Shown here in pieces: positions 14,671 to 62,729 of a DNA stretch of 64,000 nucleotides (within the stretch, counting starts at the first letter, position 1; every line of letters begins with the position of its first letter). Under the pieces are notes generated by a model. That model had not been told where the DNA came from and did no database searches. It worked only from the letters and a program-made list of their open reading frames with translations. This DNA comes from an uncultured Crocinitomix sp. Its GTDB lineage: Bacteria; Bacteroidota; Bacteroidia; Flavobacteriales_D; Crocinitomicaceae. The DNA lies in assembly GCA_937136425.1 (NCBI GenBank), contig CAKZON010000068.1, positions 62,001-126,000 on the forward strand, given 5' to 3'. The translations under genes were made by a program, and so were the position numbers.

Positions 14671-14860
14671 GCAAAAACTGCCTCTTAATTTCACCTAGAT
14701 TTGACTTTATAATAGCAAATCATTAACCCACTTACATGCAATTATATCGCGTACGCTCTGGCATTATCGCTATATAAACAGGCTTTATGGGTTGTGGAAA
14801 TTATATTGGAGGATGCCCAAAATCCATTAAAAGAGTAAGCAATTAAATAATACAAGACTT

Positions 14861-16982: not shown

Positions 16983-17019
16983 CTACGCAACAAGACTGCG
17001 CAGTGCTACTCCACCTTTG
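16983..17019 (+). promoter_or_regulatory. Shared operator/promoter copy 1 (TROVE gene): CTACGCA-N7-TGCGCAG-N8-CACCTTTG
   Basis: Inverted repeat 16983-16989/16997-17003 and -7-like box 17012-17019; same layout as two other sites in the window. Confidence 0.75.
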
Positions 17020-17045
17020 TCATATCAATAATTAAAACGATAGAT

Positions 17046-18563
17046 ATGAAATTTAATTTAATCACACGAAAAAAGAGAGTAATTGAAAACTTTGCAAACG
17101 CAAAGGCTTATTCAATGACCCCTGAATACGAATTGTATGCTGCGGTTGTAACTACAGGGTTAAATGGTTCATACTATGAATCTGCTAATAGCCGTCTGGA
17201 TCGAATCATTAAATTGATTCAAAAATGTGATCCTGAATTTGTGGCTAAGCTTGCAATTTATGCACGTAACAACATGTATTTACGATCAATTCCCTTAGTA
17301 TTAACGGTTGAATTGGCAAAACGAACTACTGGAAATTCATTGGTAAGTTCAACAGTAAGCAAAGTTGTAAAACGAGCGGATGAAATTACTGAATTACTTG
17401 CTTACTACCAATTTGCGAATAAGCGAACAGGTACTAAAAAATTGAACAAATTGTCTAAACAAATACAAAAAGGTTTAGTGAAGTCGTTCAACAACTTTGA
17501 TGAGTATCAATTTGCGAAATACAATAAGTCTACTGAAATTAAATTGAAAGATGCCTTGTTTCTTGTTCATCCAAAAGCGAAAGATGAAATGCAGCAAGTG
17601 ATATTTAATAAAATTGCGAAAGACGAATTAGCAACACCATATACATGGGAAACGGAATTGTCCAAATTAGGTCAAACTCAATTTGTAAATAGCTTTGAAA
17701 AATCTCGCGCTATAAAGCGTAAATGGGAAGAATTAATAGCAAGCAAGCGACTTGGTTATATGGCATTAATGCGAAACCTACGCAACATTTTAGAAGCAAA
17801 TGTGTCTTCTTCAACAATTGAAATGGTATGTTTGAACTTGTCCAATGAAAATGCGGTAAAAAAAGCAAAACAAATGCCTTTCCGATTTTTGGCAGCCTAC
17901 CGTGAATTGCAACGAGTTAACTCGCAATACACAAGTGCGGTGCTAAATGCATTAGAAATTGCAACTATGCATAGTGCTAAAAACATCAAAGGTTTTAGTT
18001 ACTCCACGCGAGTAGTAATTGCATGTGATGTTTCAGGTTCAATGCAACAACCTATTTCTCCAAAAAGCAAAGTGCTTTTGTATGATATTGGTTTAATGTT
18101 GGGTATGTTAATGCACTCGCAATGCAAAAATGTAACAGCAGGTATGTTTGGTAATACATGGAAAACCATTAATATGCCACAACAAAGCGTATTGAGCAAT
18201 GTACAAGAGTTTTACCGCCGAGAAGGTGAAGTAGGTTATTCTACTAATGGTTATCGCGTAATTGAGAGTTTAATTGCAAAAAACCAAGTTATGGATAAAG
18301 TGATGCTTTTTACAGATGTTCAAATGTGGAACAGCAATAATACGCATCATACCTTCGCTAAATCATGGGCAAACTATAAGCGTATAGCGCCAAATGCTAA
18401 ATTGTATTTATTTGACTTGGCAGGTTATGGTCAACAACCAATAAATGTGCAAAAAAATGATGTGTATTTAATGGCTGGTTGGAGTGATAAAGTTTTTGAT
18501 ATGTTACACGCGTTGGAGCATTCAAATTCAGCAATCACAGAAATAAATAAAATAAATGTGTAA
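17046..18563 (+). CDS. rsr: TROVE-domain, vWA-domain protein (bacterial Ro60/Rsr-like Y-RNA-binding protein)
   Basis: N-terminal helical-repeat TROVE-like region (AKLAIYARNNMYLRSIPLVLTVELAK, LGYMALMRNLRNIL); C-terminal vWA MIDAS VVIACDVSGSM. Confidence 0.92.
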   Translation: MKFNLITRKKRVIENFANAKAYSMTPEYELYAAVVTTGLNGSYYESANSRLDRIIKLIQKCDPEFVAKLAIYARNNMYLRSIPLVLTVELAKRTTGNSLVSSTVSKVVKRADEITELLAYYQFANKRTGTKKLNKLSKQIQKGLVKSFNNFDEYQFAKYNKSTEIKLKDALFLVHPKAKDEMQQVIFNKIAKDELATPYTWETELSKLGQTQFVNSFEKSRAIKRKWEELIASKRLGYMALMRNLRNILEANVSSSTIEMVCLNLSNENAVKKAKQMPFRFLAAYRELQRVNSQYTSAVLNALEIATMHSAKNIKGFSYSTRVVIACDVSGSMQQPISPKSKVLLYDIGLMLGMLMHSQCKNVTAGMFGNTWKTINMPQQSVLSNVQEFYRREGEVGYSTNGYRVIESLIAKNQVMDKVMLFTDVQMWNSNNTHHTFAKSWANYKRIAPNAKLYLFDLAGYGQQPINVQKNDVYLMAGWSDKVFDMLHALEHSNSAITEINKINV

Positions 18564-18573
18564 AAAATACTAG

Positions 18574-18610
18574 CTGCGTAAAAACATTGCGCAGTTAGTA
18601 TTCACCTTTG
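18574..18610 (+). promoter_or_regulatory. Shared operator/promoter copy 2 (Y-RNA array): CTGCGTA-N7-TGCGCAG-N8-CACCTTTG
   Basis: Inverted repeat 18574-18580/18588-18594, -7-like box 18603-18610, right after the TROVE stop codon. Confidence 0.78.
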
Positions 18611-18647
18611 TAAACAACAAGATAATGATCTTGATAAAAAATTGAAA

Positions 18648-18794
18648 TTAAACAAGTGCCGTAGAAAAGAGATACTTCGATAGGTAACCTGAGGGTCGGA
18701 GGTTCAATTCCTCCCAGCGCGCGAAAATGTGCTGTAGCTCAGTTTGGTTAGAGCATCAGATAAAAAGCCTTTTTTCGGATTTTGCCTTGTTTAA
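18648..18794 (+). ncRNA. Y-RNA-like unit 1 with circularly permuted tRNA-like domain
   Basis: Lower stem UUAAACAAG/CUUGUUUAA, UGCCGU box, upper stem AGAAAAG/CUUUUUU, AUACUUCG, T-arm, capped acceptor and D-arm. Confidence 0.82.
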
Positions 18795-18853
18795 CTTTTT
18801 CGCCTTAAAACAATGTTTTGGGCGAAGCAAAAATAGTTCTTTAACATATTAAA

Positions 18854-18988
18854 TAGTAAGTGCCGTAGAATAGAGTTACTTCGATTCCAGACTGGAAATG
18901 GAGGTGTGAACCCTTCCAACCTGCCAAGCAGGTTGTCGTCTAAAACAGGACGCCAGAGACATGTCTCTTTTCGCAATTTGCCTTACTA
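18854..18988 (+). ncRNA. Y-RNA-like unit 2 with divergent permuted tRNA-like domain
   Basis: Lower stem UAGUAAG/CUUACUA (compensatory vs unit 1), UGCCGU, UUACUUCG; CTGG, T-arm-like, 7-bp capped stem, D-arm-like and CCAG in order. Confidence 0.78.
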
Positions 18989-18998
18989 ACTTATTAAT

Positions 18999-19138
18999 GT
19001 AGAATGTCGTAGAAAAGAAATACTTCGTCTCAAATGAAGGGGAGGAATCATATAGTTGTTAATGCAGCAAAATGGTCCAGTTCGACTCTGGCAAAGACAA
19101 TGCCCCAATTAAATATTCTTTTCGTCATTTACTTCTAC
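18999..19138 (+). ncRNA. Y-RNA-like unit 3
   Basis: Lower stem GUAGAA/UUCUAC, UGUCGU box with compensatory AUUUAC, upper stem GAAAAGAA/UUCUUUUC, AUACUUCG, T-loop CCAG-UUCGACU-CUGG. Confidence 0.75.
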
Positions 19139-19152
19139 TTTAAATATTGCAA

Positions 19153-19271
19153 AAACAAGTGCCGTAAAAAAGTCATACTTCGCTGGTTATGTTTGGTTCG
19201 AATCCAAATCGGATGATTTGAAATAATTCAACGTCCGAATTTAAACTGATTTTTTGCCTTTTGCCTTGTTT
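19153..19271 (+). ncRNA. Y-RNA-like unit 4 with T-arm and extended acceptor-like hairpin
   Basis: Lower stem AAACAAG/CUUGUUU, UGCCGU, AUACUUCG, perfect T-arm UUUGG-UUCGAAU-CCAAA, adjacent 12-bp hairpin. Confidence 0.78.
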
Positions 19272-19276
19272 CAATT

Positions 19277-19347
19277 ATTGAGATGCCGTTAGTTAAGTGA
19301 TACTTCGTCCAAAGAAACAAAAACACTTAGCAACTATTGCTCGCAAT
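19277..19347 (+). ncRNA. Y-RNA-like unit 5 (short, no tRNA-like domain)
   Basis: Lower stem AUUGAGA/UCGCAAU (1 mismatch), UGCCGU, upper stem UUAAGUG/CACUUAG, AUACUUCG. Confidence 0.7.
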
Positions 19348-19349
19348 TT

Positions 19350-19420
19350 AAAGAGTGCCGTCATGAAAAGCTACTTCGACTTTTAATCTAAATCTTTTCA
19401 TACTAATTGCCTCTTTTTTT
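19350..19420 (+). ncRNA. Y-RNA-like unit 6 (short, oligo-U 3' end)
   Basis: Lower stem AAAGAG/CUCUUU, UGCCGU, upper stem AUGAAAAG/CUUUUCAU, CUACUUCG; U-run at 19413-19420. Confidence 0.72.
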
Positions 19421-57148: not shown

Positions 57149-58900
57149 TTAACCAAACATTGTCAAAAAGCTATCTTTTTGCAATTTATCTAACGACAAA
57201 TCAAAGTCTGCTTTCTTTGGATTTGCTTCAATTTCGGCACCTAATTCGGTGATCAACATTTTAAACGAAAATGGATTACTCCATTGTTGATATAACGCTT
57301 TTGTGGCTATATTCGAAACTTCAGAATTTCCAGAAACACGACTAGCGCCGGCACCAAAATTCAAAAGAACAAAACACTGTCGATCCTTCTCAGGTATTAA
57401 CATACCTAAAATTGATTGTCGTTGAACTGATTTACACTTCGTTTCAAGAAACAAATTATTCGGATTCATCATATACTTATAGTCTACATTTCCTCCTTTA
57501 CCTACAATTATTTTATAATCACAATTTGCTTCACCTGAATACACATTATTTTTAACCAAAGTTGGTTCTTTTAAACCATGTTTGGCGTACAAATATTCAA
57601 CTGCGCCATTTGGAGCATCTGTTATATCTCCAGAATACATTAACTCACCATTACCTTGTTTATATTTAGCGTTCCATCCAATTTTACCACCAATATTTAA
57701 ACCCGACAAATCTAAATCATGCGCTCTCCATCTGTTTTCCCAGTAAACACCAACAGCTAAAGATTTACCATAAAACTTAGTTCCTGTTGGGATATTACCA
57801 ACAAACATTTTTTCAGAAGTTGGCATGGCAAACTCAACGTCGTACGGCAAAAAAAACTTCTTTCCTGTTAAGTCAAATCTCTTTTTACAGTAATCAATAA
57901 GAAAACTATAGTTTGGCCATACAACACCTGACACTTGGCTTGTTTTAACGAATGATTTACCATTTCTAATTCGATAAGCAAATGCATATTGACCTTTCAT
58001 TCTTGCATAGCACGCAGAGATTGCTTTAAACAAAGCAAACGGTGTCGCATTATCTAACCAGTGGATGTCCTTATCTGTCAATTCAATAGTAGTCGCATTA
58101 TTCAAAGGGTTCTCAACCAAAGGTTTATGGTGTATTTTCGATAATTTAGAAATTTTATTAATCGTTTTTGGACATCTCCCTTTATAAGCTAAAAACAAGG
58201 GTTTGAAACGGTTAAATATTTCGGCCATTTTCTCTAGACCAAACTTTTCAAATTGTGCTGCAGGATTAAAGTTTGATTTTTTAATTCCTTCAATAACCTC
58301 TTCACTTTTAATTAAAAGCGAATCATCAATTGTACGGTAAATGATATATCTAAAAAATGCTAGATTATCTGTTGGTAAGACTCCATACATGTCCGCAATT
58401 TTAACAATTGCTTCTTTATTTTTAATGTTTTCGTTTCCTGTAAATTGGTACGAAAGCTCATCCACTAAAACAGATAATAAATCATTTATAGTTTCTTCTT
58501 TCAAAGCCAAACCAGACTGTAAAAGATTCAAACATTTCGCAATCATTTCCTCTTTAGAGTAAGCCTTTACAATTTTAAATTGCAATTTAGCATTGGGTAC
58601 ATCAAGCACTTCATTTGGAATGTAAATTTCATCTTGAAATTGACTGCCGTAAGTGGATACATAATGTCTGATTTGCTCTAGATACAACTCTTCTCTTGAT
58701 GATTTTAGGATTTTTTTCCAAGACTTATGAAACGTTTTGTTTAATCCGTAACCATCTAAATTCTCATTTTTGAAGAATCGAGCAATGTCCTTTTTTGCCC
58801 AAACCGCGCCAGCTTCAATAATATAACCTAAGTCAGAAATAAATAATTCCTGATTGCTTTCTTTCTGAAGCACGGCATTAAATAATTTTAAAGTTTTCAT
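57149..58900 (-). CDS. Large uncharacterised protein with TerD-like C-terminal region
   Basis: AVGVYWENRWRAHDLDLSGLNIGGKIGWNAKYKQGNGELMYSGDITDAPNGAVEYLYA resembles TerD-type [DLDxS...GxV.xSGD] cores; N-terminal alpha-helical region. Confidence 0.6.
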   Translation of the reverse strand: MKTLKLFNAVLQKESNQELFISDLGYIIEAGAVWAKKDIARFFKNENLDGYGLNKTFHKSWKKILKSSREELYLEQIRHYVSTYGSQFQDEIYIPNEVLDVPNAKLQFKIVKAYSKEEMIAKCLNLLQSGLALKEETINDLLSVLVDELSYQFTGNENIKNKEAIVKIADMYGVLPTDNLAFFRYIIYRTIDDSLLIKSEEVIEGIKKSNFNPAAQFEKFGLEKMAEIFNRFKPLFLAYKGRCPKTINKISKLSKIHHKPLVENPLNNATTIELTDKDIHWLDNATPFALFKAISACYARMKGQYAFAYRIRNGKSFVKTSQVSGVVWPNYSFLIDYCKKRFDLTGKKFFLPYDVEFAMPTSEKMFVGNIPTGTKFYGKSLAVGVYWENRWRAHDLDLSGLNIGGKIGWNAKYKQGNGELMYSGDITDAPNGAVEYLYAKHGLKEPTLVKNNVYSGEANCDYKIIVGKGGNVDYKYMMNPNNLFLETKCKSVQRQSILGMLIPEKDRQCFVLLNFGAGASRVSGNSEVSNIATKALYQQWSNPFSFKMLITELGAEIEANPKKADFDLSLDKLQKDSFLTMFG

Positions 58901-59043: not shown

Positions 59044-59080
59044 CAAAAGTAAATTGCCTGTGCGCAACCATTCTGCGCAG
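59044..59080 (-). promoter_or_regulatory. Shared operator/promoter copy 3 (TerD-like gene): CTGCGCA-N7-TGCGCAC-N8-TACTTTTG
   Basis: Minus strand: arms 59080-59074 and 59066-59060, -7 box 59051-59044. Confidence 0.78.
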
Positions 59081-61290: not shown

Positions 61291-62729
61291 AATTCTTTTC
61301 TTAATCTCGCTACTGGAATATCCAATTGCTCGCGGTATTTTGCTACTGTTCTACGTGCAATATTATATCCTTTTTCTTTTAATAAATCAGTTAATTTTTG
61401 ATCCGTTAATGGTTTCTTCTTTAACTCCGCGTCAACAGCGTCTTGCAAAATCTTTTTTACCTCTCGTGTCGAAACCTCTTCCCCAGAAGAAGTTGAAAGA
61501 GACTCGGAAAAAAAGTATTTTAAGGACATGATGCCATATGGTGTTTGAATATACTTTGAGTTGGCTACCCTAGAAATAGTTGAAATATCCATTTCTACAA
61601 TATCAGCAATGTCTTTTAAGATCATTGGGCGCAAATTCGTATCATCACCTGTTAAAAAATACTCCTTTTGATAATCTAAAATTGCTTTCATGGTGTACAA
61701 AAGCGTTTGCTGGCGTTGCTGAATAGCATCAATAAACCATTTGGCAGAATCTAATTTTTGTCGAACAAATTGCACAGCTTCTTTGTCAGACTTAGAACTT
61801 TTAGCACCTTCAGAATAACTTCGCAACATATTCTCATATGTTTTACTCACTTTTAATTGAGGAGCATTTCTTCCATTCAATGATAAGCTCAATTCTCCTT
61901 CATCATCTGTTAAGATAAAATCTGGAATAATTTGTTGAATGTTTTTTGAGTTTGTTGATTCCTTTAATGAATTACCTGGCTTAGGATTTAATCGAACAAT
62001 CTCTTCAATTGCATCCTTTAAATCTTCGTCATTAATTTCAAATTTAGTCTTAATCTTTTCGTAGTGCTTTTTAGTAAATTCTTCGAAAGATTTTTCTAAA
62101 ATCTTTTTTGCCGTATAAATTGCAATATCACCGTGATGTCTTCTCTCTAATTGTAATAACAAGCATTCTCTTAAATCCCTTGCACCTACTCCTGCAGGTT
62201 CAAAATCTTGAATGATGAAAAGTACATCCTCTACATCCTCTTCAGTAGTTTCAACATTTGCTGTAAAAGCCAAGTCATCTACAATGGCTTCGATTTCTCT
62301 TCTTAAATAACCATCATCATCAATGTTTCCAATGATATTCTCTGCTATTAATTTTTCATTTGTTGTTAATTTACGGAGCATTAATTGGCTCTCTAAAATT
62401 TCATGGAAAGACTTTCCTCCAGAAATTGGAACGGCCTTTTCATCTTGATCTTTACCGGAGTTTGAAACAGATGTTTTGTACTGCGGTAAGTCATCATCCA
62501 AATAATCATTGATATCAAATTCCTCATTTGAATCTGATACTTCGTCATATTCATCATAGTCATCCTCACTTGTTTCCTCTTTCCCTTCTTCCAACGCAGG
62601 ATTCTCTTCAATTTCTTCCTTAATTCTTTGCTCAAGCTCCATAGTAGGAACCTGTAGCAATTTCATCAACTGGATTTGTTGAGGAGAAAGCTTTTGAAGC
62701 AACTTTTGACTTAATGTTTGTTTTAACAT
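61287..62729 (-). CDS. rpoN: RNA polymerase sigma-54 factor
   Basis: MLKQTLSQKLLQKLSPQQIQLMKLLQVP N-terminus; C-terminal RpoN box ARRTVAKYREQL. Confidence 0.96.
   Translation of the reverse strand: MLKQTLSQKLLQKLSPQQIQLMKLLQVPTMELEQRIKEEIEENPALEEGKEETSEDDYDEYDEVSDSNEEFDINDYLDDDLPQYKTSVSNSGKDQDEKAVPISGGKSFHEILESQLMLRKLTTNEKLIAENIIGNIDDDGYLRREIEAIVDDLAFTANVETTEEDVEDVLFIIQDFEPAGVGARDLRECLLLQLERRHHGDIAIYTAKKILEKSFEEFTKKHYEKIKTKFEINDEDLKDAIEEIVRLNPKPGNSLKESTNSKNIQQIIPDFILTDDEGELSLSLNGRNAPQLKVSKTYENMLRSYSEGAKSSKSDKEAVQFVRQKLDSAKWFIDAIQQRQQTLLYTMKAILDYQKEYFLTGDDTNLRPMILKDIADIVEMDISTISRVANSKYIQTPYGIMSLKYFFSESLSTSSGEEVSTREVKKILQDAVDAELKKKPLTDQKLTDLLKEKGYNIARRTVAKYREQLDIPVARLRKEL

Follow-up and report, generated by a model that had tools for sequence, protein, structure and literature searches.

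Vertebrate Y RNAs have a terminal stem with a bulged helix that protein binds, and a variable loop, a plan like that of the units described below; they are not known to have a tRNA-like domain, or to form arrays of the kind found in Bacteroidota. Bacterial Y RNAs were reportedly described by Chen et al. in 2014 near Ro60 genes in more than 250 species, with at least one tRNA-like RNA per species, and the finding of a Y RNA in Bacteroides thetaiotaomicron is said to come from Greiling et al. in 2018. A review reports that this RNA co-precipitates with the bacterial Ro60, and that lupus sera are able to precipitate the Ro60 and Y RNAs carried by human gut and mouth Bacteroidota (PMC11277228). 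In the Rsr-Y RNA-PNPase complex (RYPER) of Deinococcus radiodurans, as summarised in two papers, a Y RNA on a Ro60-like ring tethers the partner by its tRNA-like end (PMC7790460, PMC8394870). Here we analyse a 64,000-nucleotide (nt) stretch of DNA (the window; positions 62,001 to 126,000 of contig CAKZON010000068.1, our C68) from the 6.09-Mb genome of an uncultured Crocinitomix sp. of the Bacteroidota (GCA_937136425.1, our G000). Between a TROVE/Ro60 gene and a convergent open reading frame (ORF), at 18647-19420, lie six tandem units, 3' of the TROVE gene and on its strand, which we judge from their sequence to be, very probably, six noncoding Y RNAs that act as partners of the adjacent Ro60/TROVE ring protein. 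An original prediction from the same DNA had proposed six Y-RNA-like units at 18648-19420, and their number, order and limits are borne out.

Six units with a common handle

Each unit is built on the same handle, consisting in order of a lower stem, a bulged U, a GC/GC step, CGU, an upper stem and an invariant UACUUCG, and enclosing a variable insert. This is the plan originally predicted, and the stems listed for it are all present, including the single mismatch in unit 5. Some details change: the invariant loop string is UACUUCG, preceded by A, U or C; the 3' box, given as AUU(U)GC, exists in the form UUGC or UUAC after variable bases; and units 5 and 6 abut, the stems of the one ending at about 19348 and those of the other starting at about 19350. 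Both of these units are minimal, or headless, and the 3' stem of unit 6 continues into U7, a terminator-like end.

Within the array region the ORF list holds no ORF longer than 71 amino acids (aa). The window's genome is very near to L057 and L061 (97-98% protein identity), and the array differs from that of L061 by about 30 substitutions and by internal indels of just 2, 2 and 1 bases. Because these indels break the frame and the ORFs are short, we reject a protein-coding reading and take the array to be noncoding, as had been predicted. We expect the units to be stable small RNAs. As in Y RNAs, they lie beside a TROVE gene, they have a basal stem with a conserved bulge site, and the locus includes a permuted tRNA-like domain.

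Covariation of the handle

In order to measure pairing free of selection, we chose the 3' partner of each handle either by its lower stem alone or by its upper stem alone. When the lower stem was used, UGCC met GC 91 times and AC 3 times, while UGUC met AC 89 times and GC 18 times; the compensatory UGUC/UUAC pair proposed for unit 3 is present in the window. When the upper stem was used, the lower stem was paired at 85%, versus 58% for swapped partners (maximum 62% in 1000). Given this pairing under partner choice, we conclude that a chance origin of the handle is excluded, and the covariation check suggested with the prediction comes out strongly. Among 21 minimal units, 15 of 16 pairs are changed on both sides, 93% of cells are paired (63% when shuffled, 39-52% when slid) and the covariation score is 0.87 (0.26 shuffled, 0.11-0.24 slid); the units of alignment A1 were selected by pairing score, so that figures from A1 are biased upward and the unbiased ones are those of the partner-choice tests.

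Linkage to TROVE genes

We scanned TROVE relatives, comprising 67 genome loci and one viral contig, for the handle pattern TGYCGT-N(9-12)-TACTTCG. The strict pattern gave 256 handles at 66 TROVE loci, the window included, with 1-7 at each, and all but one of these loci belong to Bacteroidota. Throughout the window's genome the pattern has six matches, all in the array, versus three for the reversed control pattern. A covariance-model search, also suggested with the prediction, was carried out with model R1; it returned 246 matches in 68 loci (614 kb), essentially all adjoining a TROVE gene on the same strand. Over whole genomes it has 49 matches, every one at a TROVE locus; they come from 19 of 22 TROVE-bearing genomes and from none of 24 genomes without TROVE. 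In the three TROVE-bearing genomes that it missed, the pattern does find the handle. Of 396 Bacteroidota genomes drawn evenly, 28 had TROVE matches, and in 23 of these the handle lies beside the TROVE gene by pattern or model. Throughout Bacteroidota, then, such units adjoin TROVE genes on the same strand, which supports the predicted association, and the exclusive linkage suggests that the units bind Ro60.

At TROVE loci of haloarchaea, Deinococcota, Proteobacteria, Actinomycetota and most phages, R1 found nothing convincing. Phage crAss001 has a weak handle-like match (L141:4339-4428; 25 bits, E 0.001) directly behind its TROVE gene, possibly a phage Y RNA with a diverged handle. In a Bifidobacterium plasmid another weak R1 match (L217:4025-4102; 18 bits) likewise follows the TROVE gene closely.

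Arrays of 3-6 units are the norm in Bacteroidota. In most lineages they follow the TROVE gene; in several Bacteroidales, among them L050, L052, L056 and L065, they are upstream of it. The upstream cases, together with the tight linkage, would suit an array that serves as a cis-acting leader or attenuator for TROVE or other neighbouring genes instead of giving rise to separate RNAs. We consider this very improbable, since the downstream position of most arrays, that of the window included, sometimes comes with an operator of the array's own, since unit number and inserts vary around a constant handle, and since known Y RNAs show the same layout.

Heads carried by the handle

The insert, or head, of unit 1 runs from a T-arm through a 7-base-pair (bp) acceptor with a short cap to a D-arm, the order of a tRNA that has been opened at the anticodon and had its ends fused at the acceptor; the upper stem of the handle takes the place of its anticodon stem. 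Like YrlA, both unit 1 and unit 2 carry as insert a circularly permuted tRNA mimic whose opening lies in the anticodon stem, and the insert of unit 4 is probably another: a strict architecture detector matches the first two, and unit 4 with a weak D-arm. Applied to all long inserts, the detector finds the full permuted architecture in 68 of 212, versus 0-2 in shuffles; by its criteria, 49 of the 66 arrays have a permuted tRNA-like domain. The 7+7 acceptor positions of 63 such units pair at 0.90, compared with 0.51 for swapped partners. Unit 3 bears a different, unpermuted head, class B, which is described by model R2 and of which about 36 arrays, from Crocinitomix, Flavobacterium, Pedobacter and others, have one copy each. 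Among ten TROVE-bearing and ten other genomes R2 matched arrays only, save for one marginal match (E 0.004), and no Rfam family matched this head in the window or the relatives searched. The original prediction had overlooked the permuted inserts of units 1 and 2 and the module of unit 3, as well as the operator, described below, that is common to RNA-repair genes.

Flavobacterium arrays mostly keep the same order of head types, which argues for non-redundant head roles. Tandem tRNA genes occur near TROVE genes at several loci, as they might if the region were a decayed tRNA cluster, or a repeat without an RNA product. That possibility, to which we give almost no weight, is refuted by the compensatory changes in the handle, the acceptor stems and the class B T-arm, and the conserved head order also speaks against it.

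Units with a long, unclassified head of about 167 nt occur at L050:5715-5930 and L052:5644-5850, and this head is conserved between the two Bacteroidales genomes.

A common operator

The TROVE gene of the window is preceded by a palindromic operator with the consensus CTRCGYA-N7-TGCGYAG. At two mismatches or fewer, it is found upstream of 57 of 65 TROVE genes, whereas the best that shuffles gave was 3 mismatches, in 1 of 65. The operator also precedes the array in the window and in several Flavobacterium species; in the window, this second copy and the CACCTTTG box after it are likely to form the array's own promoter, for which they are our candidate. Further copies in the window's genome lie upstream of an RtcB gene (C20), of a WYL-domain regulator (C85) and of an array of 17 tRNA genes (C119), and a reversed control pattern has no sites in that genome. 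In Flavobacterium and other relatives, too, rtcB has this operator in front of it, and in some of them a WYL gene lies near the TROVE gene or rtcB. One copy in the window, with one mismatch (59060-59080), is followed after about 160 bp by an ORF of 583 aa on the minus strand (57149-58900), which has no Pfam match and is an uncharacterised candidate member of the regulon.

Because the operator precedes the TROVE gene, the array, rtcB, the WYL regulator and the tRNA array, we infer that these may form an RNA-damage regulon under WYL control. Such control would be an analogue of the proteobacterial RtcR system, which we use here as the regulatory counterpart (PMC7790460, PMC4012209). No RtcR-like ORF lies beside the TROVE gene of the window, and the WYL-domain ORF with an operator is on another contig.

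The 17 tRNA genes (L197:17-2513) lie on one strand directly 3' of the operator, beside genes for an RNA ligase (PF09414) and an HD+AAA_33 protein; the array may restock tRNAs after damage. The WYL-WCX regulator ORF (L200:496-2262) has its operator 38 bp upstream and runs on into a PhyH (phytanoyl-CoA dioxygenase) domain; in relatives WYL-WCX stands alone. Yet another operator copy (L199:2408, on contig C40 of the same genome) lies between uncharacterised ORFs of 495 aa (L199:2453-3940) and 238 aa without Pfam match; the next ORF (458 aa) resembles, to judge by the first residues of the two, the ORF L202:8149-9519 near a Flavobacterium TROVE locus. Arrays of tRNA genes around or near TROVE genes are seen at L146, L151, L152, L182, L202 and L217 (haloarchaeal and Bifidobacterium plasmids, phages and Bacteroidota).

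An operator common to rtcB and to a 17-gene tRNA array beside RNA ligase and HD/kinase genes, together with permuted tRNA bodies that keep intact T- and D-arms and 7-bp acceptors, might also mean that tRNA damage induces the units and that they serve as tRNA decoys or as substrates for tRNA repair, with the tRNA-like heads as the core and the link to Ro60 secondary. This we consider unlikely. Units 5 and 6, like many others, retain an unaltered handle although they have no tRNA part; the anticodon loop, at which tRNA-cleaving toxins usually act, is lost in the permutation; no handle turned up in the 24 genomes without a TROVE gene; and Salmonella YrlA is reported to be uncut by the damage-induced nuclease (PMC7790460).

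The TROVE gene and neighbouring features

The positions of all features are collected in Table 1. The protein encoded by the TROVE gene aligns over residues 15-497 with the solved TROVE proteins 9l5y/9kop (E 2.5e-27); its PF05731 match is well above the cut-off and its vWA_Ro60 match slightly short of it (26.5 bits, cut-off 27.7); the product has a TROVE domain plus a vWA-like domain.

Table 1. Features at the TROVE locus, in window coordinates
Feature	Position	Strand	Evidence or remark
Palindromic operator CTACGCA-N7-TGCGCAG, upstream of TROVE gene	16983..17003	+	Pattern across TROVE loci
Promoter-like box CACCTTTG	~17012-17020	+	3' of operator, before TROVE gene
TROVE/Ro60-like protein, 505 aa, vWA domain, DxSGS motif (DVSGSM)	17046..18563	+	PF05731 E 3e-28; vWA_Ro60 E 7e-6
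Second operator copy, between TROVE gene and unit 1	18574..18594	+	Genome-wide operator sites
CACCTTTG box after second operator	~18603-18610	+	
Unit 1: handle, permuted tRNA-like insert	18647..18795	+	R1 50.8 bits; 7/7 acceptor-like pairs
Unit 1, inner YrlA-like tRNA-mimic domain: T-arm, capped acceptor, D-arm	18677..18781	+	RF02553 37 bits, E 3e-6
boxA-like element AGTTCTTTAACATATT, between units 1 and 2	18835..18850	+	Two 1-mismatch copies elsewhere in genome
Unit 2: handle, permuted tRNA-like insert	18851..18991	+	R1 48.6 bits
Unit 2 insert: T-arm, 7-bp acceptor, Glu/Gln-type D-arm	18900-18916 (T-arm)	+	Strict architecture detector
Unit 3: handle with UGUC/UUAC variant	18995..19142	+	R1 matches 5' part only, 17.1 bits
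Unit 3, class B module: GGGG/CCCC closing stem, long hairpin, canonical T-arm-like hairpin, unpermuted	19024..19110	+	R2 87.7 bits, E 5e-22
Unit 4: handle, T-arm (19192-19208), 7-bp acceptor-like stem, weak D-arm	19150..19274	+	R1 37-47 bits
Unit 5: minimal, loop ~31 nt	19274..19350	+	R1 67.3 bits; itself a sequence of A1
Unit 6: minimal	19346..19420	+	R1 69.9 bits; itself a sequence of A1

The boxA-like element that lies between units 1 and 2 would be in keeping with a long noncoding transcript subject to antitermination; of its two other copies in the genome, one belongs to the leader of the 16S rRNA. Elements of this kind are well placed before units, although only modestly enriched there (0.24 versus 0.13 per kb), and for this reason we do not claim boxA as a general feature of the arrays. 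Between the same two units, at 18799-18829, lies a strong hairpin, TTCGCCTTAAAAC...GTTTTGGGCGAA, which resembles a terminator or processing site. Elsewhere in the window, an Rfam match to DUF805b RNA (38.6 bits, cut-off 35.6) lies at 14806-14841, upstream of a 657-aa ORF.

Proposed mechanism

If the units are indeed Y RNAs of the adjacent Ro60 protein, the handle would be the Ro60-binding part that docks on the ring, and the inserts would be interchangeable heads. Units 1, 2 and probably 4 would present a permuted tRNA body and unit 3 a second conserved head, while the headless units 5 and 6 may only gate or occupy the ring. RNA damage would act through a WYL-type regulator at the palindromic operator and induce rtcB and related genes along with the TROVE gene and the array. 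Once loaded, the rings would bind defective RNA, and the heads might recruit or compete for enzymes of tRNA processing, repair or decay, or they might recruit or imitate substrates of tRNA-handling enzymes or of a nuclease. Docking and recruitment are modelled on the Deinococcus and Salmonella systems, as summarised in two papers (PMC7790460, PMC8394870).

Several points weigh against this account. Expression and Ro60 binding are argued from sequence. The handle differs from that of proteobacterial Y RNAs (GAAUGC...CUACA...UUGUCG), which R1 misses. In the window the Rfam YrlA model (RF02553) scores 37 bits on the insert of unit 1, under its curated gathering score of 69, and leaves the other units unmatched; at the gathering score it has no match in 14 relatives. 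The handle was not found in 5 of the 28 TROVE-bearing Bacteroidota genomes, mostly those with the weakest TROVE matches. Finally, what points to the WYL protein as a possible binder of the operator is adjacency and the operator before the WYL gene itself.

We also entertain, tentatively and with somewhat less than even confidence, a more specific proposal: a Ro60 ring with a programmed set of adaptors, a distinct head at each position, induced together with rtcB, the tRNA array and repair genes by a WYL RNA-damage sensor, as an RtcR analogue made of unrelated parts. The heads would then be permuted mimics of several tRNA types, one unpermuted head per array, and headless gates.

Comparison with known systems

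Bacterial Y RNAs, small tandem sets of them and a Bacteroides Y RNA were already known. What is new, to the extent that this could be checked, is a handle model for Bacteroidota, the class B head, the common operator and a linkage that holds exclusively across whole genomes. Having several heads on one handle allows head-by-head tests in tractable Flavobacterium species. The common operator offers a concrete hypothesis for joint induction of Ro60, Y RNAs, rtcB and spare tRNA genes outside the RtcR system, and our working model should be useful for finding the Y RNAs of human gut and mouth Bacteroidota.

Our locus would share with RYPER a Ro60-like ring and a Y RNA with a tRNA-like end, but among the Deinococcota TROVE loci that were searched none has a match to the handle model. 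The Bacteroides thetaiotaomicron Y RNA belongs to the same phylum, and the comparison with it extends to its description in a review (PMC11277228).

The nearest relatives are YrlA and YrlB of Salmonella and other Proteobacteria (RF02553, RF02565). They too lie beside a Ro60/Rsr gene, with rtcB near; their 5' and 3' ends pair into a long stem in which an internal loop is the protein site, and at least one unit has a permuted tRNA-like domain. Tandem sets of 3-4 occur there as well (L213, L215, L216): a Salmonella fragment holds YrlB, YrlA and a third unit, and Rhizobium and Methylosinus plasmids have 3-4 units between the TROVE and RtcB genes. The claim that the array goes beyond the classic arrangement therefore holds only in part: arrays of 3-6 are usual in Bacteroidota, and these Proteobacteria have tandem sets as well. 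The two handles follow the same plan and are recognisably alike (AUGC, UAC). However, Bacteroidota have UG[C/U]CGUA...UACUUCG...UU[G/A]C, the window's handle does not fit the YrlA pattern GAAUGC...CUACA / UUGUCG, and neither model finds the other's handle. At the loci searched, no Y RNA family of Rfam 15 matched the units above its cut-off. Because the proteobacterial handle shares the plan but is missed by R1, we read the units as the same kind of RNA and as a distinct, Bacteroidota-specific Y RNA family outside Rfam 15. Compared with the YrlA/YrlB loci, those of Bacteroidota have larger arrays, an added class B head and what would be a WYL-type operator in place of RtcR/sigma-54 control.
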